From Gammaproteobacteria bacterium (lineage in GTDB: Bacteria > Pseudomonadota > Gammaproteobacteria > DSM-19610), in NCBI GenBank assembly GCA_026197075.1, contig JAPHQV010000015.1, forward strand, positions 186,001 to 250,000: a stretch of DNA of 64,000 bases, written 5' to 3'. The translations under genes and the position numbers were made by a program. The notes beneath the pieces were generated by a model. That model saw only the letters and a program-made list of their open reading frames with translations. It made no database searches and had not been told where the DNA came from. Each line of letters starts with the position of its first letter. Position 1 is the first letter of the stretch. Of the stretch, positions 6,723 to 62,059 are shown piece by piece.

Positions 6723-9284
6723 ATGCCCGGCACACGTTTTTCACTGGAAGTCCAACCCACCATCCCGGAACGCCTGAACCATCTCCCGGTCCTGGCCAAC
6801 GACCTGCTGTACAGCTGGGACCGCAGCGTGCGCGGCCTGTTCTTCCGGCTTGATCGTGACCTGTGGGAAAGCTGCAAGCATAACCCCAAGCTGTTTTTGC
6901 GCCGGATCTCCCAGCAGGCCCTGGACGAGGCCGCAGAAGACCGGGTCTTCCTGGAGGACTACAACCGGGTCCTTTCCGCCTATAACAGCTACAACGAGGC
7001 CCAGATCCGCGACGACGTCGCCGAGCACCTGCAACCCGGACAGGACCTGGTGGCCTACTTCTGTGCCGAATTCGGCCTGCACGAGAGCCTGCCCATCTAT
7101 TCCGGCGGCCTGGGCATCCTGGCCGGCGACCACTGCAAGGCCGCCAGTGACCTGGGGCTGCCCTTCGTGGCGGTGGGCATGCTGTACCGCCAGGGCTACT
7201 TCACCCAGACCATCGACGAACACGGCAATCAGGTGGCCCACTACACCACCACCGATTTCGACCAGCTGCCGCTACGCCACGCCGTGGACAAAGAAGGCAA
7301 TTCCCTGCGCGTGAGCGTCGACCTGCCCGGTCGCGCGGTGCAACTGCAGGTATGGGAGGCCAAGGCCGGCCATATCACCCTCTACCTGCTGGACAGTGAC
7401 CTCCCGTCCAACCAGGAGGCCGACCGCGCCATCACCTACCAGCTCTATGGCGGGGATTCCAATACCCGCATCCAGCAGGAAATCGTGCTCGGGGTCGGCG
7501 GCGTACGCGCCCTGAGGGCCCTGGGTCTCACCCCCACGGTCTGGCACATCAACGAGGGCCATGCCGCCTTCATGATCCTGGAGCGTTGCCGGGAATGTGG
7601 TCAAAAACAGGGCATGGATTTTTCCAGTGCACTGGAAATGGTCGCTGCATGCACGGTATTCACCACCCACACCCCGGTGGCCGCGGGCCATGACATCTTC
7701 GATCACAGCCTGATCAGCAGCTATTTCGAGGATTACGTCAAGGAACTGGGCATCGACATGGCGCACTTTCTTTCCCTCGGCGCCAGCCCCGGCAATCAGG
7801 GCGGTTTCAACCAGACCGTACTGGCCCTGCGTGGCTCGCGCTTCCACAACGGGGTCAGCCGCATCCACGGCGAGGTGGCTTCGCGCATGGAAGGTTATGT
7901 GTGGCCGCAGATTCCCCATGAAGAAAATCCCATTCGCCATGTCACCAACGGTGTGCACGTGCCCACCTTCCTGGCACGCGAATGGGCAAACCTCTACGAC
8001 ATGCGTTTCGGCCTGGAATGGCGTTCGGAACTGCTCAACGAATCCTACTGGGAGCGGGTTGACGAGATCCCCAACCACAGTTTCTGGAGCCTGCGCCAAT
8101 CCCTGAAGTCGGAACTGATGACCAACGTACGCCGCCGCGCCGTGTTGCAGCACCGCCGCAACGGCTGCAGCGAGGCACTCATCGAGCGTATCACGCAACA
8201 CCTGAGCCCCCACGAGACCGACATCCTCACCGTGGGCTTCGCGCGCCGTTTTGCCACCTACAAACGTGCCACCCTGCTGTTCTCCGATCCGGACCGGCTG
8301 GCGCGGCTGCTCAATGACCCCAAGCGGCCCGTACTGCTGATTTTCGCCGGCAAGGCCCATCCCAGCGACCTGCCCGGCCAGCACCTGATCCGTGTCATCC
8401 ACGATTTCTCCCGGCGCCCGGAATTCATCGGCAAGATCATCCTGCTGGAAGGCTATGACCTGGCCCTGGGTCGCAAACTGGTGACCGGCGTGGACGTATG
8501 GCTGAACAATCCAGAATATCCCATGGAGGCCAGTGGTACCTCGGGTGAGAAGGCCGGCCTCAACGGTGTCATCAACCTGAGCGTGCTGGACGGCTGGTGG
8601 GGCGAAGGCTACAACGGCGAGAACGGCTGGGCCATCACGCCCCATGGGCCACAGTTCGACGCCACCTATCGCAACCAGGAAGAGGGCAGCGAACTGTTGG
8701 ATATCCTGGAACACCAGGTCATCCCGCTCTACTACGATCGCAACGGCCATGGCTACTCGGAAAAATGGGTACACATGTCCAAGGCTTCCATGAAGTCCAT
8801 CCTGCCCCAGTTCAACTCGCAACGCATGGTGATGGACTATGTGCGGGATTTCTACGGCCCTGCCAGTCGCCAGGGTCGTATCCTGCACCAGACAGGAGCG
8901 GCGGGTGCCAAGGCGCTGGCCCGCTGGAAGAGCCGGGTACTGGCCGCCTGGTCCGGGGTCAGAATGCGCCAGGTGGAGTCTGTACCACCGGCCATACATG
9001 CCGGGGAAAAACTGACCCTGACGCTGGCCGCGAAGCTCAACGGTCTCAAGGCCGACGATGTGGTGGTGGAATGCGTGGTAGGCACCGAGGATGAGCATCG
9101 CAAGTTCATCGCCCACGACCATATCCGTTTCACGGCCCGGGGCAACAATGACCAGGGCGAGACCCTGTTCAGCCTGGATCTCGATCCACCACTGCCGGGA
9201 CTGCAGCATTACCAGCTGCGCATGTACCCCTACCATCAGATGCTCAGCCACCCCTTCGAGACAGGGTGCATGATCTGGTTGTAG
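6723..9284 (+). CDS. glgP: Alpha-glucan phosphorylase
   Basis: Phosphorolysis of alpha-1,4-glucan to glucose-1-phosphate, PLP-dependent. 853 aa. The N-terminal ~110 residues match the DUF3417 extension of the short bacterial phosphorylase type, followed by the GT35 core: YSGGLGILAGDH near the start, HINEGHAAF, HDIFDHS, and EASGTSGEKAGLNG with the PLP lysine at about residue 610. ATG 6723 is preferred (GGGG about 7 nt upstream); in-frame starts exist at 6636 and 6684. Convergent with malQ. Together with malQ and the GH57 enzyme it forms the degradation side of the glucan locus. Confidence 0.95.
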   Translation: MPGTRFSLEVQPTIPERLNHLPVLANDLLYSWDRSVRGLFFRLDRDLWESCKHNPKLFLRRISQQALDEAAEDRVFLEDYNRVLSAYNSYNEAQIRDDVAEHLQPGQDLVAYFCAEFGLHESLPIYSGGLGILAGDHCKAASDLGLPFVAVGMLYRQGYFTQTIDEHGNQVAHYTTTDFDQLPLRHAVDKEGNSLRVSVDLPGRAVQLQVWEAKAGHITLYLLDSDLPSNQEADRAITYQLYGGDSNTRIQQEIVLGVGGVRALRALGLTPTVWHINEGHAAFMILERCRECGQKQGMDFSSALEMVAACTVFTTHTPVAAGHDIFDHSLISSYFEDYVKELGIDMAHFLSLGASPGNQGGFNQTVLALRGSRFHNGVSRIHGEVASRMEGYVWPQIPHEENPIRHVTNGVHVPTFLAREWANLYDMRFGLEWRSELLNESYWERVDEIPNHSFWSLRQSLKSELMTNVRRRAVLQHRRNGCSEALIERITQHLSPHETDILTVGFARRFATYKRATLLFSDPDRLARLLNDPKRPVLLIFAGKAHPSDLPGQHLIRVIHDFSRRPEFIGKIILLEGYDLALGRKLVTGVDVWLNNPEYPMEASGTSGEKAGLNGVINLSVLDGWWGEGYNGENGWAITPHGPQFDATYRNQEEGSELLDILEHQVIPLYYDRNGHGYSEKWVHMSKASMKSILPQFNSQRMVMDYVRDFYGPASRQGRILHQTGAAGAKALARWKSRVLAAWSGVRMRQVESVPPAIHAGEKLTLTLAAKLNGLKADDVVVECVVGTEDEHRKFIAHDHIRFTARGNNDQGETLFSLDLDPPLPGLQHYQLRMYPYHQMLSHPFETGCMIWL

Positions 9285-37463: not shown

Positions 37464-38195
37464 CTATTCCTGGGTCCATTCCCCCATGCGGGCGCGCAGG
37501 CGGATCAGGGCCTGGCCATGGATCTGACAGACCCGGGACTCGCTAACCCCGAGTACCTCGCCGATTTCCCGCAGGTTGAGTTCTTCATCGTAGTACATGG
37601 CCATCACCAGGCGTTCCCGCTCGGGAAGCCCCGCGATGGCCTCGGCCAGGGCGGCCTTGAAGCCCTGGTTCTGCAGGCTATCTAACGGCTCGTTCGGCTG
37701 GTCCTGAAGGCTGTAATCGGCCTCGTCGCCGGAATGGCCCGGTTCGTCGATGCTGAACACCCGGCAGCCGGTGGCATCCTGCAGGATCCGGTGATACTCC
37801 TCCAGGCTGATGCCCATGGCCTCGGCAACTTCGTTATCGCGTGCATCCCGACCCTTCTCGTTCTCGATGCCACGCACCGCTTCAGCCACCTGGCGCGCCT
37901 TGCGGTGCACCGAACGCGGTGTCCAGTCGGTACGGCGGATCTCGTCGAGCATGGCGCCGCGGATGCGGATCCCGGCATAGGTCTCGAAACTGGCGCCCTG
38001 GGAGGCGTCGTAGTTCTTGGCTGCCTCCAGCAGACCGATCATTCCCGACTGGATCAGGTCATCGGCCTGGACACTGGGCGGCAGGCGACTCATTAAATGA
38101 TAGGCAATACGTTTTACCAGTGGCGCGTGCTTCATCACCATGGCATCGGCATTGGCATTGTCCTGTGTGGCGGCGTACATGGCGGCTCCATTCAT
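37464..38195 (-). CDS. fliA: Flagellar sigma factor 28 FliA
   Basis: 243 aa. Region 2 MKHAPLVKRIAYHLMSRLPPSVQADDLIQSGMIGLLEAAKNYD, region 3 around ESFETYAGIRIRGAMLDEIR and region 4 helix-turn-helix LNLREIGEVLGVSESRVCQIHGQAL. ATG 38195 overlaps the flhG stop (ATGA); ATG 38180 with GGAG is an alternative. Drives late flagellar and chemotaxis genes; the anti-sigma factor flgM is not in the window. Confidence 0.95.
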   Translation of the reverse strand: MNGAAMYAATQDNANADAMVMKHAPLVKRIAYHLMSRLPPSVQADDLIQSGMIGLLEAAKNYDASQGASFETYAGIRIRGAMLDEIRRTDWTPRSVHRKARQVAEAVRGIENEKGRDARDNEVAEAMGISLEEYHRILQDATGCRVFSIDEPGHSGDEADYSLQDQPNEPLDSLQNQGFKAALAEAIAGLPERERLVMAMYYDEELNLREIGEVLGVSESRVCQIHGQALIRLRARMGEWTQE

Positions 38196-39079
38196 GACAG
38201 CATCTCCGCTCCGTTATTGCGGGATTGAATCAAACGTTCCACGAAAAATTCCAGATGTCCTGCAGCGGCCGAGGGGATCGGCCATTTCTCGGTTTTCTGC
38301 GCCAGGGTCTTGAAGGCCATGGCCGAACGGCTGCGCGGGAAGGCTTCCACGACCGCCTTCTGCTTGCGCACGGCCTTGCGCAGGTAATCGTCATAGGGGA
38401 TGGCGCCCATGAACTCCAGGGTGACATCCAGGTAGCGGTCGGTTACACGCAGTATCTTGTTATACAATTCCCTTCCCTCCTGGGCACTGTGGGCCATGTT
38501 GGCCAGGACCCGGAAATGTTGAATGCCGTATTCACGACTCAGCAGCTTGATCAGTGCATAGGCATCGGTGATGGATGCCGGTTCGTCACAAACCACCACT
38601 AGGACTTCCTGGGCGGCGCGACTGAAGCTCACCACGCTGTCGCTGATACCGGCGGCGGTGTCGATCACCAGGGTATCGATGTCGTGGCTGAGCTCACTGA
38701 AGGCGCGGATCAGCCCGGCATGCTCCATGGGACTGAGCTCGGCGAGGCGCTTGGTGCCCGAAGAGGCCGGCACTACCTTCATGCCGCCCGGACCTTCCAC
38801 CAGGATCTCCTCCAGGGTGCGCTCGCCGTCCAGCACATGGGTGAGGTTGTACTGTGGGTGCAAGCCCAGCATCACATCCACGTTGGCCAGCCCCAGATCG
38901 GCATCCATGAGCATGACGCGCTTACCGCTGTTGGCCAGCGACACGCACAGATTGACGGACACGTTGGTCTTTCCCACACCACCTTTGCCGCTGGTAACGG
39001 CGATGACACGTACGGGGTGCGGTTGAGCCATGCGACGGAGTCCTGCTGCCTGATCCAGCTTCATTTCAGACATGAGCAT
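38192..39079 (-). CDS. flhG: Flagellar number regulator FlhG (FleN)
   Basis: MinD-like ATPase that limits polar flagellar number by antagonising FleQ and stimulating FlhF GTPase. 295 aa with the N-terminal DQAAGLRRM activation helix (9-17), Walker A GKGGVGKT (31-38), MLMDADLGLANVDVMLG and DTAAGISDSVVSF. Overlaps flhF by 14 nt and fliA by 4 nt. Confidence 0.96.
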   Translation of the reverse strand: MLMSEMKLDQAAGLRRMAQPHPVRVIAVTSGKGGVGKTNVSVNLCVSLANSGKRVMLMDADLGLANVDVMLGLHPQYNLTHVLDGERTLEEILVEGPGGMKVVPASSGTKRLAELSPMEHAGLIRAFSELSHDIDTLVIDTAAGISDSVVSFSRAAQEVLVVVCDEPASITDAYALIKLLSREYGIQHFRVLANMAHSAQEGRELYNKILRVTDRYLDVTLEFMGAIPYDDYLRKAVRKQKAVVEAFPRSRSAMAFKTLAQKTEKWPIPSAAAGHLEFFVERLIQSRNNGAEMLS

Positions 39080-47601: not shown

Positions 47602-48159
47602 CTACTGCATCACGAAGTTGGTGAAATAGACGTTCTCGATCTTGTCCGACGCGCCTACCTGTTTCATGACCTTGCGGATCTCATCGAGCACCTGTTTGCG
47701 CAGCTGCTCCTTGCCTTCACGGGTCTCGAGATCGCTGGGTTTCTGGCTGGCAAACAGCAACACCAGGTTGTTCCGCACGGCGGGGTCATGTTCGATCATC
47801 TTGGGTGGGACATTGGGATCACGGGTAGCGATCTGCAGTTCGATCTGCAGGAAGCGCACATCGCTGTCGCCACTGAAATTCACCACGAAGGCAGGGTGCA
47901 GCGGCACATAGATGATGCGTCCGGTAGGAACGGTCCAGTCTTCCCCCTGCTCGCCCTCAGCGGCCTCCGTCGTGGCAGGGGTTGTGGCGGGGTCCGTGCT
48001 GGAATCCCCGGTCAGCAGCCAGAAGGTCAGCCCCCCGGAAACCAGCAGCAGGACCAGGATCGCGGCACCCACGATGAGGATGATTTTCTTGCGACCACCC
48101 TGTCCGCCGCCTTCTTCCGCGTCGATATCCAGGTCCAGATCGTCTTCTTGTACTGCCAT
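47602..48159 (-). CDS. fliL: Flagellar basal body-associated protein FliL
   Basis: 185 aa from ATG 48159 (AGGAA upstream); the frame is open to 48189. Acidic N-terminus, one membrane helix (about 22-42), Thr/Ala linker and the periplasmic FliL domain (YVPLHPAFVVNFSGDSDVRFLQIELQIATRDP). Interacts with the stator. First gene of the fliLMNOPQR-flhB run, preceded by a sigma-54 promoter. Confidence 0.95.
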   Translation of the reverse strand: MAVQEDDLDLDIDAEEGGGQGGRKKIILIVGAAILVLLLVSGGLTFWLLTGDSSTDPATTPATTEAAEGEQGEDWTVPTGRIIYVPLHPAFVVNFSGDSDVRFLQIELQIATRDPNVPPKMIEHDPAVRNNLVLLFASQKPSDLETREGKEQLRKQVLDEIRKVMKQVGASDKIENVYFTNFVMQ

Positions 48160-48194
48160 GGCGCATTCCTGATGATTCGGTTTCATCACAAGGA

Positions 48195-48346: not shown

Positions 48347-50596
48347 CTACAGGCTCCAGGCGCCGTCGCTGAGCCAGTGGGTGAAGCCCTGGTGAGGCAA
48401 GGGCCGACTGATGTGGTAGCCCTGCCCCGCGTCGCAACCCAGGGTCTGCAGCAGATCCCAGGCGGCGGCATCCTCCACGCCCTCGGCCACCACCTTGCAA
48501 CCCAGGTGGTGGCCCAGGTCGATGATGGAACGCACGATCGCCAGGTCCTGGTCACTGTTCACCATGCCGCTGAGGAAGGTGCGGTCGATCTTGAGGGTGT
48601 GAATGGGCAGATGCCGCAGGTAGGCCAGGGAGGAATAACCGGTGCCGAAGTCGTCGATGGCCACCGCCACACCCAGTTCATGCAGGGCGCGCAACACCTC
48701 GGCGCCCTGGGCCAGGTCCGCCATCAGGGTCTCCTCGGTGATCTCGATCTCCAGGCAGGCACCGTCCACCTGCGCCTCCTCCAGGGCCGAGCGCACCTTA
48801 TCCACCAGCCCCGTGCCCTGGAAGGCGCGGGCCGAGACATTGATGGCCACCGGCATGTGGATGCCGGCCGCGCCCCAGCGTTTGCATTGTTGCAAGGCCG
48901 TGACCAACACCCACTGGGTGATGGGCGTACCCATGCCCAGTTGTTCCGCCAGGGGAATGAAGCGCCGCGGCAACACCAGGCCTTCCTGGGGATGTTGCCA
49001 GCGCAGCAGGGCCTCGGCTCCGCAGATGCGGCCGCTGCCGATGTCGATCTGCGGCTGGTAGTGCAATTCGAACTCGCCACGCTCCAGGGCATGGTGCAGT
49101 TGCCCGGAGAATTGCATCTGTTCACCGGGATTGATGTCCACGGTGGCCTCGTAGAAGAGCCAGGGCGCGCCGCTGCGCTTGGCGCGCTGCAGGGCACTGT
49201 CGGCATGGCTGAGCAGGTTGTAGGCATCCTCGCCATGCTCGGGATAAAGGGCAATACCCAGGGCGCCACTCAGACAGAGTTCACGATCCTGCAGGGTGAA
49301 GGGATGTTCGAAGCAGGCCAGCACCTCGTTGGCGACCCGTTCCACGGCCTGGCCGGCGCCCTGCACGGTCGGCAGGATGATGCCGAAGTCATCGCCGTCG
49401 AGTCGGGCCAGGGTATCGGTGTCGCGCACCAGGCCCTGCAGTCGACCGGCAAGTTGCTTGAGCAGGTCGTCACCCACGGGATAACCGAGGGTATCGTTGT
49501 ACATCTTGAACTGGTTGATATCGAGCACCATGACGGCCAGCCGCGTACCGGGATGGCGACGGCAGTTCGCCAGGGCGGTACCCAGGCGGTCATACCAGAG
49601 AGCCCGGTTGGCCAGGCCGGTGATATCGTCAGTGGTGGAGCGCTGTTGCAGGCGCTGGCGCGCCACATGGGCAGCATCGATGTCTTCCATCAAGGCATGT
49701 ATCCGCAACACCCGTCCACGCCGATTGGCCACCGGCGCGAACTGGAATCGATGCCAATGCGGGTCCTCGCCTTCCCGTTGCTGACGGACCTCCACCTCCA
49801 CCACCTCGCCCTGCAATGCCTTCTGCCAGGCGGTGAGGACCTTTTCCTGGTCTTCGGGCAGGATGAGGGACAGGCAGGGAATGGGAGCCCGCAGATCATC
49901 TCCGAGACAACGGGCCAGCCCCGGGCTGTGGTAGAGCATGCGATTGTCGCTCACATCCACCGACCACAATTGCTGGGGGATGCTGTCCAGCAGGTCCTCG
50001 GCGCGATCCCGGTACTCCCGCAATCCATCTCGCTGCTGCTGCAACTTGTCGGCGCCATATTGCCAGTACGCCTCGCTGACCATGCCGAAATCCCGCAACA
50101 CCAGCTTGACCAGGACGGCATTCAAGCGATCCCGGTCGGTGAGCGGGATGTCGGACTCCGCGGCGATGATTTCCTGCAGATGATTCAGAAACAGGCGATA
50201 CCCGCCGAGCATCCAGACGGGACGCACGCCATGTTCCTGGTGGTGTTCCCCGATGTGGTCGAGCCGCTCTGCCCAGGCCTCGTCGGAAGGAGCGCGCAGC
50301 AAGTCCACCAGGTGAGCAAGATGGCTGCGCACCAGGTCGCCGATGTGACCGCCGGCACGCTCATGGGCGTACAGCACATCGGCCGTGGCAGGATTGTCGA
50401 AAAGATAGTTGTAATAGACTTGGGCAAAGTGCGCCGTGCCCTGGGCGAGCAAGGCATGATAGTTGGCGAGAATACGCCTTTCATCCTCGCTGATCTGGAG
50501 GACATAATTGTATTCCCGCGTCTGCGCCAGGTGTGCGGAACGCCTTCCATTGCGCGCCCGCTTCACCCGCCTCCGGTCTTTGATGGTTCCAGACAT
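48347..50596 (-). CDS. Globin-coupled sensor GGDEF-EAL protein
   Basis: 749 aa. Globin/protoglobin-type sensor at about 35-180 (FAQVYYNYLFDNPATA, then HIGEHHQEHGV.P.WMLGGY with probable proximal haem His119). PAS-like region about 200-310. GGDEF domain (325-480) whose active-site motif is degenerate, DGDDF (400-404). EAL domain (about 495-745) with GAEALLRW (Glu528), NVSA, EITEE, IDDFGTGYSSL, LKIDRTFL, AEGVED: all key phosphodiesterase residues are present. Likely an oxygen- or redox-responsive c-di-GMP phosphodiesterase. Inserted between fliK and fliL on the same strand; weak ribosome site. Confidence 0.88.
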   Translation of the reverse strand: MSGTIKDRRRVKRARNGRRSAHLAQTREYNYVLQISEDERRILANYHALLAQGTAHFAQVYYNYLFDNPATADVLYAHERAGGHIGDLVRSHLAHLVDLLRAPSDEAWAERLDHIGEHHQEHGVRPVWMLGGYRLFLNHLQEIIAAESDIPLTDRDRLNAVLVKLVLRDFGMVSEAYWQYGADKLQQQRDGLREYRDRAEDLLDSIPQQLWSVDVSDNRMLYHSPGLARCLGDDLRAPIPCLSLILPEDQEKVLTAWQKALQGEVVEVEVRQQREGEDPHWHRFQFAPVANRRGRVLRIHALMEDIDAAHVARQRLQQRSTTDDITGLANRALWYDRLGTALANCRRHPGTRLAVMVLDINQFKMYNDTLGYPVGDDLLKQLAGRLQGLVRDTDTLARLDGDDFGIILPTVQGAGQAVERVANEVLACFEHPFTLQDRELCLSGALGIALYPEHGEDAYNLLSHADSALQRAKRSGAPWLFYEATVDINPGEQMQFSGQLHHALERGEFELHYQPQIDIGSGRICGAEALLRWQHPQEGLVLPRRFIPLAEQLGMGTPITQWVLVTALQQCKRWGAAGIHMPVAINVSARAFQGTGLVDKVRSALEEAQVDGACLEIEITEETLMADLAQGAEVLRALHELGVAVAIDDFGTGYSSLAYLRHLPIHTLKIDRTFLSGMVNSDQDLAIVRSIIDLGHHLGCKVVAEGVEDAAAWDLLQTLGCDAGQGYHISRPLPHQGFTHWLSDGAWSL

Positions 50597-50688: not shown

Positions 50689-51948
50689 TCAGGCAAAATA
50701 ATCGATGCTGCCGGAGCCTTCACGCAATGGAGTGACGGTGACGCTGGTCGGCTCTTCCTCCGCTTGGCCCGCCGCCGGGCGGGCGCCGCCATGGGCCTGG
50801 AAGGCCTGGGCATCCTGGCGCCGCTGTTCGGCAAGGGATTGATCCGAAACCGTGACCTGGTTCAGCTGCAATCCCGACTCACCGAGCATCTCGCGCAGAC
50901 GTGGAATGGCCGCTTCCAGGGCCTCGCGCGCCACGCCATGCTGGGCCGTGAAGGTGATGTTGGCCTGATCGTTCTGCATCTGGATGCGCACCTCCATCGG
51001 TCCCAGGTGGGCGGGATTGAGACGGATCTCCGCACCCTGCAGCCGGTTGCCCACCATCCACTGGACCTGTTCGCCCAGGGCCCGGTCCCAACCGGCCTGC
51101 CCCAGGGGCACGGCAACGGTCGTGGCAGGCAGGGTGGCTGCCGGGGCCTGCGGACTGGTCACGGTCTGGGGCCCGAAACCCGTCGGGGTCTCGACCCGCG
51201 GGCCGGGTTCCGTGCCACGCGTGGCCGCGGCGCGCATCAATTCACCGAAGCGCGATTCCCGTGCGCCCTCTTCCACACTGCGCTGTTGCAGGGCCTGGTG
51301 CACCGCAGTGGCCACCGCGCGAGCGGGTTCCAGGAGCGGCAAGGTCTCGGCCTCTTTCCCTGTCACCGCCGTGGGCAAGGCAGCCCCCGGCTGGGAAACG
51401 GTGTTTTGTATCAGCGGCCGACCGGACGGCACGGCCGCCTCGTCGGCCAGGGGCATCCCGGCTCCACCCAGCGCGGCACGAGCCAGGGCGGAGGTCGTAT
51501 CCGCCAGGCCGCCAGGTGCCTGGGCCGGTGTGCCGGCGGCCGCCTGGGCGCTGGCCTCCTGCCCGGCGAGCACGGCCTGCAAGGCTTTCTCCAGGTCCTC
51601 GGCCGTGGTTCCGACGGGAAGACCGGACAGTGCAGGGTCATCCGCGGGCAGGTCCAGGTGCTCACCAAGGTCTTCCAGGTCGAAGCCGGCCAGGGCCAAC
51701 AGCCGGGAGGCATCCGGCAACTCCTTGCCGTCGACGGCCGGCAGCTGCCCCTGTGGATTGCCGGCCAGCAGCGCCGACAATACCAGCGGCAGGCCTTCGT
51801 CTGGCACCGGCTTGTGCCCCGCCAGGAGCTGGGCGAAGGGGTGAGACTCACCTTCAAACAATTGTTTTTCTATCTGATTTCCGCCCATGCGCAAGGCGCC
51901 CTGGGCAATTTCGGGGTTGACGGCAAGCGCTAGCAGGGGGTCGGCCAT
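50689..51948 (-). CDS. fliK: Flagellar hook-length control protein FliK
   Basis: 419 aa. Variable Ala/Pro/Gly-rich N-terminal ruler (1-285) and a conserved C-terminal Flg_hook domain (WDRALGEQVQWMVGNRLQGAEIRLNPAHLGPMEVRI, NQVTVSDQSL). It interacts with FlhB to switch export specificity. In line after fliI-fliJ, with its own possible sigma-54 promoter. Confidence 0.93.
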   Translation of the reverse strand: MADPLLALAVNPEIAQGALRMGGNQIEKQLFEGESHPFAQLLAGHKPVPDEGLPLVLSALLAGNPQGQLPAVDGKELPDASRLLALAGFDLEDLGEHLDLPADDPALSGLPVGTTAEDLEKALQAVLAGQEASAQAAAGTPAQAPGGLADTTSALARAALGGAGMPLADEAAVPSGRPLIQNTVSQPGAALPTAVTGKEAETLPLLEPARAVATAVHQALQQRSVEEGARESRFGELMRAAATRGTEPGPRVETPTGFGPQTVTSPQAPAATLPATTVAVPLGQAGWDRALGEQVQWMVGNRLQGAEIRLNPAHLGPMEVRIQMQNDQANITFTAQHGVAREALEAAIPRLREMLGESGLQLNQVTVSDQSLAEQRRQDAQAFQAHGGARPAAGQAEEEPTSVTVTPLREGSGSIDYFA

Positions 51949-60580: not shown

Positions 60581-62059
60581 TCAAATTCCTGCCGTTTCAT
60601 CGGCCCGTTGCAGGCCATACTTACGCAGTTTTTCCACCAGGGTGGTACGGCGCATGCCGAGCCGTTTGGCGGCACGCGCCACCACGCCGTCGGCATCGTC
60701 CAGGGCCTGCTTGATGAAGCCCACTTCCAGGTCACTGAGGTGCTGCTTGAGGTCCAGGCCATTGCGGGGCAGGCGCGGTTCCATGCTGTCGGCCGAGAAG
60801 CTGTGCATGGGATGGGGCTGGGGCGGGAGCATGGCGGGCGCGGTTTCCTCGTCATCCATGGACGCCAGCACCTGGCCGGCGCTGGCGGGAATCCCCTCGG
60901 CCTGGAATTTCTCCGGCAGGTCCTGGATGTCCACCACGCCGAAGGGACACAGGATCGCCATCCGCTCCACCAGGTTGGCCAGCTCGCGTACATTGCCCGG
61001 CCAGCTGTACTGGCACAGGGACAGCACCGCCGCCTGGGTGAAGCGCACGGACCCGCGCTTCTCGTACTCGATGCGGCGGATCAATTCGTTGATCAGCAGC
61101 GGGATGTCCTCTACCCGGTCGCGCAGCGGCGGCATCTCGATGGGGAACACATTGAGGCGGTAGAAGAGATCCTCGCGGAAACGGCCGTCGGCAATCGCCT
61201 CCTCCAGGTTCACATGGGTCGCGGCGATGACGCGCACATTGGTGACGATGCTCTTGTTGCTGCCCACGCGCTCGAAGGTACGTTCCTGCAACACGCGCAA
61301 CAGCTTCACCTGCATGGGCAGGCTCATGTCGCCAATCTCGTCCAGGAACAGGGTGCCGCCCTCGGCCAGCTCGAAACGGCCCTGGCGGGAACTGATGGCA
61401 CCGGTGAAGGCGCCCTTCTCGTGTCCGAACAGCTCCGATTCCAGCAGGTCAGCGGGAATGGCACCACAATTGATGGGCACGAAGGGTTGTTCGCGACGCG
61501 AGGAGTAATAATGGATATTGCGCGCCACCACTTCCTTGCCGGTGCCGGATTCACCCAGGATCAGCACATTGGCGTCCGAATCGGCCACCTGCTGGATCAT
61601 CTTGCGCACCTGGTGGATGGAACGGCTGGTCCCCACCAGGCTGCGGAACAGATCGACGGGCCGCTGGCGGCTGCCGTCGAGCTGGGATTCACGGTACACC
61701 TCGGCCTGGTGCAGGGCGCTGGTGAGCTGGGTGTAATGCGGCGGCAAGGCGATCTTGCCGAGGATGCAGGAGCTGGGTTCGATGGGTACCGTGGGTTCCC
61801 GGTCCTTTTCCGCCAGCAGGAAGATGGGCAGGTGCTCGTCATAGCCGTGCACCTCTTTCAGCAGCTTTTCCAGGGCCTTGTCGTTCTTGCAGCTGCCGAT
61901 CAGCACGGCCAGGCAGGGATCTTGTTCTTCCAGGGCCTTGGCCCAGCGGCTGCAATCGGCCACCCAGACTGCCTCGTAATTGATGAATCTCAGCACCGCG
62001 GCAAGCTCACGCCCGCGCTCCTCATCGGCCTCGATGATCAGTACCTTCGGTTCACTCAT
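60581..62059 (-). CDS. fleQ: Flagellar master regulator FleQ
   Basis: 492 aa sigma-54 enhancer-binding protein that starts the flagellar cascade. The N-terminal REC-like domain lacks the phospho-acceptor Asp ([10 protein letters not shown] at that site), as in other FleQ. AAA+ domain with LFRSLVG (137-143), GESGTGKE (169-176), Arg188/189 in [14 protein letters not shown] (216-221) and [11 protein letters not shown]; the first, Arg and VER elements correspond to c-di-GMP contact sites described in Pseudomonas FleQ. C-terminal Fis-type HTH ([21 protein letters not shown]). Its sigma-70 promoter is upstream. Confidence 0.96.

Follow-up and report, generated by a model that had tools for sequence, protein, structure and literature searches.

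In the polar-type flagellar cluster of the 64,000-nucleotide stretch of gammaproteobacterial DNA analysed here (the window), a gene that we call GCS is situated between fliK and fliL and encodes a protein with a globin sensor fold followed by PAS-like, GGDEF and EAL domains. The gene is fixed at this position in the window's family and recurs there in others. In one lineage that has lost nearly all flagellar genes, GCS is retained under purifying selection beside fleQ, flhG and fliA, with its EAL motifs conserved. It probably serves the flagellar master regulators rather than the motor.

The gene and its position

GCS occupies 48347..50596 on the minus strand, as an open reading frame of 749 codons that starts with ATG and encodes a 749-residue product. 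Pfam analysis revealed four domains, namely a protoglobin domain (residues 32–179; 50060..50503; 62.6 bits against a cut-off of 25), a PAS-like domain (residues 216–309; 49670..49951; PAS_4 28.7 and PAS_3 28.3 bits, which barely exceed the Pfam cut-offs), a GGDEF domain (residues 321–476; 49169..49636; 146.6 bits) and an EAL domain (residues 499–732; 48401..49102; 259 bits), all on the minus strand. A plus-strand open reading frame that overlaps the stretch was taken for a high-GC shadow. The upstream neighbour fliK (50689..51948; Pfam Flg_hook) and the downstream neighbour fliL (47602..48189; Pfam FliL) are on the same strand, separated from GCS by gaps of 92 bp and 157 bp, respectively. The same-strand, four-part gene between fliK and fliL described in the initial annotation was therefore recovered with both neighbours. 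The cluster runs fleQ-flrB-flrC-fliF...fliJ-fliK-GCS-fliL-fliM...flhA-flhF-flhG-fliA-che, with several of the names assigned by position and homology. Also on the minus strand are fleQ (60581..62059), flhG (ParA/MinD-like; 38192..39079; Pfam ParA) and fliA (sigma-28; 37464..38195; Pfam sigma-70 regions 2–4).

We compared this arrangement among 20 genomes of the window's family and 369 genomes sampled across the class. An orthologue exists in 19 of the 20 family genomes. The search itself found 18; the nineteenth, G009, was rejected as a member without the gene, since the last 68 GCS residues are encoded at the edge of a contig, upstream of fliL. The sole family genome without GCS (G007, 82% complete) also lacks FliM and FliL. 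Wherever a family genome has flagellar genes (19 cases), GCS is adjoined by fliK and/or fliL, and the one-sided neighbourhoods are mostly contig ends. The same junction is found in families f122 (G140, G254 and G350), f113 (G247, where the fliL side is visible) and f83 (G101). The initial annotation had considered that the gene might be a random insertion, absent or unlinked in all relatives; we rejected random insertion given that the fliK–fliL position is conserved in the family and in at least three others. Its premise that fliK and fliL are normally neighbours also agrees with the genomes lacking GCS, in which the two are directly adjacent in five of the ten checked, that is, wherever both are recognisable; in the other five, the variable fliK was unrecognised by tblastn.

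Some loci deviate from this pattern. In L144 (G003) and L042, an additional stretch of about 1–3 kb lies between GCS and fliL; in L042 it contains a 253-residue open reading frame without a Pfam match. In L067 from Thiohalobacter thiocyanaticus, fliK and GCS are together and fliL-fliM lies about 15 kb off, and in L145/L146 the distance is 335 kb, in an assembled genome (G018) that is 71% complete and may be misjoined. Globin-PAS-GGDEF-EAL proteins also form a sister group (L071–L112, mostly Pseudomonas), some with EVL for EAL, which is encoded at loci of non-flagellar context as far as scanned. The window's genome has two further protoglobin proteins, L001 on contig C59 and L002 on contig C45; one of these frames has 953 residues with GGDEF-EAL, and the other has 369.

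The gene in a lineage without flagella

In a remnant group of 11 copies, GCS directly follows fleQ (visible in 10), with flhG and fliA next in order (visible in 9). The gene order is that of the window minus the segments flrB-fliK and fliL-flhF and the che block. These loci are flanked by the glgB/glgC glycogen genes as in the window, with GlgC 76–80% identical over long stretches; FlhG and FliA share 49–54% and 72–78% identity, respectively, with the window copies. FliM and flagellin are each absent from 10 of the 11 genomes, and FlhA from 9. Incomplete assembly is an unlikely reason for missing flagella in 10 of the 11 genomes; two of these 10 have completeness ratings of 98–100%, and no rating is given for the other eight. 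The only genome of the lineage with flagella genes is G281 (copy L157); its set, on the separate contig C2, includes flagellins, FlhA and a FliM that is divergent (E 1e-55), and was either acquired later or is contamination.

In the protein tree, the remnant copies form one group (SH-aLRT 100) nested within the fliK–fliL group (99), and a clade of the main fliK–fliL copies that excludes them was rejected (AU p=3.5e-5). An independent insertion beside fleQ is disfavoured, since the copies beside fleQ nest within the fliK–fliL copies and both the window order and the glycogen flank are kept. The simplest reading is that the remnant locus arose by deletion in place, not by a new insertion. The remnant GCS is under purifying selection: pairwise dN/dS of the EAL domain is 0.02–0.08 in four remnant pairs, though several pairs approach saturation of dS, which makes these ratios rough.

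Output and sensor domains

The EAL domain of the window protein possesses the EAL motif together with the metal- and substrate-binding residues typical of EAL-type phosphodiesterases (E528, N586, E618, E621, D648–D649, K669, E705 and Q725), and it is intact as first annotated. It is likewise intact in 25 of the 26 fliK–fliL copies. The exception, L155 (G350; 7561–8925), ends after GSDEF, with no EAL in any frame before fliL; at position 119 this copy has Tyr, with a His adjacent. Across the copies, the EAL motifs are intact wherever the domain is present, save for EVL in one outlying copy and in some Pseudomonas-type copies. In the GGDEF domain, the diguanylate cyclase signature GG[DE]EF is replaced by DGDDF (residues 400–404; 49385–49399, minus strand), with the inhibitory I-site RDTD kept (residues 391–394; 49415–49426, minus strand). 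The 26 fliK–fliL copies have GGDEF in 18 cases, GSDEF in 5, and DGDDF, SEDEF and GADRF in one each. From these counts, decay is recurrent in the cyclase motif and rare in the phosphodiesterase. The earlier description of the GGDEF as degenerate accordingly holds for the window's genus but not for the family, most same-junction orthologues of which have GGDEF or GSDEF; by motif comparison, the decay is genus-specific.

Most fliK–fliL orthologues keep the GGDEF motif and may also synthesize c-di-GMP. GCS could then be a bifunctional switch resembling DcpG, in which one ligand state favours synthesis by GGDEF and another breakdown by EAL, with the window copy either recently drifted to a pure phosphodiesterase or still capable of both. 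We regard this as a rather improbable reading, albeit one with real weight: 23 of the 26 copies have GGDEF or GSDEF with the Mg and guanine-site residues kept, and the window DGDDF retains both acidic motif positions, but it is without the first Gly, and all 11 remnant copies combine a degenerate GGDEF motif (GGDQF or GGDRF) with perfect EAL motifs, which argues that cyclase activity is not the conserved part. Motif conservation suggests that the constant function of GCS is probably c-di-GMP breakdown, while the sensor changes.

For the sensor, we searched the PDB with a profile built from 18 orthologous globin domains, which matched HemAT, GsGCS, Tlr1989 and AfGcHK. In the profile alignment, H119 (50240..50242, minus strand) corresponds to the proximal haem His and the nearly invariant Y62 (50411..50413, minus strand) to the distal Tyr of HemAT and GsGCS, so these residues are the predicted haem ligand and distal-pocket residue. 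The AlphaFold2 model of the domain has a pLDDT of 94.6, and its top fold matches are AfGcHK, GsGCS and HemAT with TM scores of about 0.8–0.9. The protoglobin-type N-terminal domain, the sensor fold and the His/Tyr pair support the window protein as a globin-coupled sensor that would bind haem; the globin and the role of His119 suggested by the initial annotation agree with the model and with the solved sensors. Family orthologues, such as L005 and L016, have a variable, strongly basic tail of 25–30 residues before the globin, often containing an AT-hook-like KKRGRPKEE; in the window protein the tail is modelled with low confidence.

The putative input of the window protein is likely oxygen. 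Alternatively, the globin may respond to another ligand (NO, CO or haem itself) or act as a haem-free helical input domain, which we consider unlikely, and slightly more so than the bifunctional switch. H119 is lost in 5 of the 11 remnant copies (four Leu and one Arg) and is Tyr in L039, a family copy, as well as in L155; in the His-less pair L064–L068, the globin evolves faster than the EAL domain (rough dN/dS ratios of 0.15 versus 0.02). However, H119 is kept in 24 of 26 and Y62 in 26 of 26 fliK–fliL copies, and both are present in 42 of 42 Pseudomonas-type relatives. Because 5 of the 11 proteins of the flagella-less lineage are without the haem His, oxygen input would not be an invariant part of GCS function.

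Regulatory partners and a proposed mechanism

The best PDB match of the window FleQ, the likely c-di-GMP reader, is Pseudomonas aeruginosa FleQ (8p53, E 4e-175). The window FleQ aligns with this structure and contains LFRS, KEVVARN (post-Walker A KExxxRN) and ExxxR, in keeping with the contact motifs first annotated, and all three are kept in 10 of 10 remnant FleQs. We take these to be the c-di-GMP motifs known from the FleQ structure literature. With kinship ignored, FleQ is found in 20 of the 21 class genomes with GCS versus 222 of 369 overall; the corresponding figures for FliM are 17 of 21 and 190 of 369. Since many other GGDEF-EAL proteins are encoded in the same cells, position alone does not imply that GCS is specific for FleQ. 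The evolutionarily kept partner is FleQ-FlhG-FliA, because GCS survives beside them after flagellum loss. The idea of c-di-GMP control encoded inside the machine it controls is correct as to the flagellar position; the partner that evolution keeps is not the machine. By gene order and motif retention, the constant role of GCS is probably that of a phosphodiesterase feeding FleQ-FlhG.

These observations enable us to propose, tentatively and at somewhat less than even confidence, that GCS is the dedicated c-di-GMP input of FleQ-FlhG(-FliA). In one lineage, the flagellum would have been deleted around this set, which would survive to regulate non-flagellar genes, those for adhesion, matrix or pili, under c-di-GMP gating, its oxygen sensor rebuilt or lost and its phosphodiesterase preserved. 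That GCS is instead an unrelated regulator settled in a highly expressed operon and not specifically linked to flagella or FleQ is very improbable: some related copies lie at unrelated loci with no constant partner among the neighbours scanned, G321 lacks both FleQ and FliM, and GCS has its own intergenic gaps with no consistent sigma-54 or sigma-28 promoter and no shared promoter motif upstream of its orthologues, but the position is fixed across several families and the gene stayed where it was, under selection, through the deletion of nearly all its flagellar neighbours.

For the mechanism, we favour with reasonable confidence a soluble EAL phosphodiesterase controlled by a haem globin, activated by a gas, most likely O2, and shifting FleQ/FlhG to flagellar genes through lower c-di-GMP. 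The predicted haem globin, with H119 proximal and Y62 distal, would govern the EAL domain via the PAS/GGDEF part. Binding of the gas would switch on c-di-GMP hydrolysis; the activating sign is borrowed from the O2 form of DcpG. The resulting drop in c-di-GMP would move FleQ, together with FlhG, from its c-di-GMP-bound state. Finally, flagellar genes would be expressed and matrix genes repressed.

Several known systems resemble parts of this model. DcpG from Paenibacillus dendritiformis is a globin-coupled GGDEF-EAL protein whose O2 form is a phosphodiesterase and whose NO form is a cyclase (PMC10882959). It shares with GCS the globin sensor, both output domains and gas control of a c-di-GMP enzyme, whereas GCS has an intervening PAS-like domain, DGDDF, a gammaproteobacterial host and a fixed place in a flagellar cluster, DcpG being compared here by description rather than sequence. 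The Acidithiobacillus protoglobin-GGDEF-EAL proteins represent the same fusion in hosts that also have FleQ, but they differ in a CZB domain and in mobile-element locations, and the passages covered report no fliK–fliL position (PMC6416229). DosC (EcGReg), which affects motility when expressed, has the proximal His H98 and distal Tyr43 in its globin (PMC5549716); DosC and BpeGReg share the fold class and the His/Tyr pair with GCS, but they synthesize c-di-GMP and lack an EAL domain. Escherichia coli DosP (PdeO) is alike in its GGDEF-EAL part (PDB match E 4e-64) and in oxygen-linked c-di-GMP breakdown; its haem, however, is in a PAS domain, whereas the predicted haem domain of GCS is the globin, and the window protein scores 308.9 bits against the DosP equivalog cut-off of 857 (NF008467). 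In Stenotrophomonas, the phosphodiesterase SisP allows flagellar gene expression by lowering c-di-GMP, as proposed for GCS, but it responds to ferrous iron, acts via FsnR and has no globin (PMC9600515). Bulk surveys have already recorded regulators and FliA hits in non-motile genomes (PMC12199754). Lysobacter enzymogenes shows the reverse pattern of loss, with export genes kept and fleQ lost.

The globin-GGDEF-EAL architecture is already known from DcpG (PMC10882959) and Acidithiobacillus (PMC6416229). In the literature searched, which left most subscription journals outside, we found neither a globin-coupled enzyme at fliK–fliL or fleQ-flhG-fliA nor survival of a GCS-type gene with fleQ-flhG-fliA after flagellar loss. 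A bacterium usually has many c-di-GMP enzymes, and it is usually unclear which enzyme serves which reader. Here, gene order offers a testable enzyme–reader pairing, in which one phosphodiesterase stands beside FleQ and FlhG even without a flagellum. Natural comparisons are on offer among the copies, including loss of the haem ligand, intact versus decayed GGDEF and one copy without EAL. Furthermore, a flagellar master regulator set that has outlived its organelle could allow its targets outside the flagellum to be identified cleanly.
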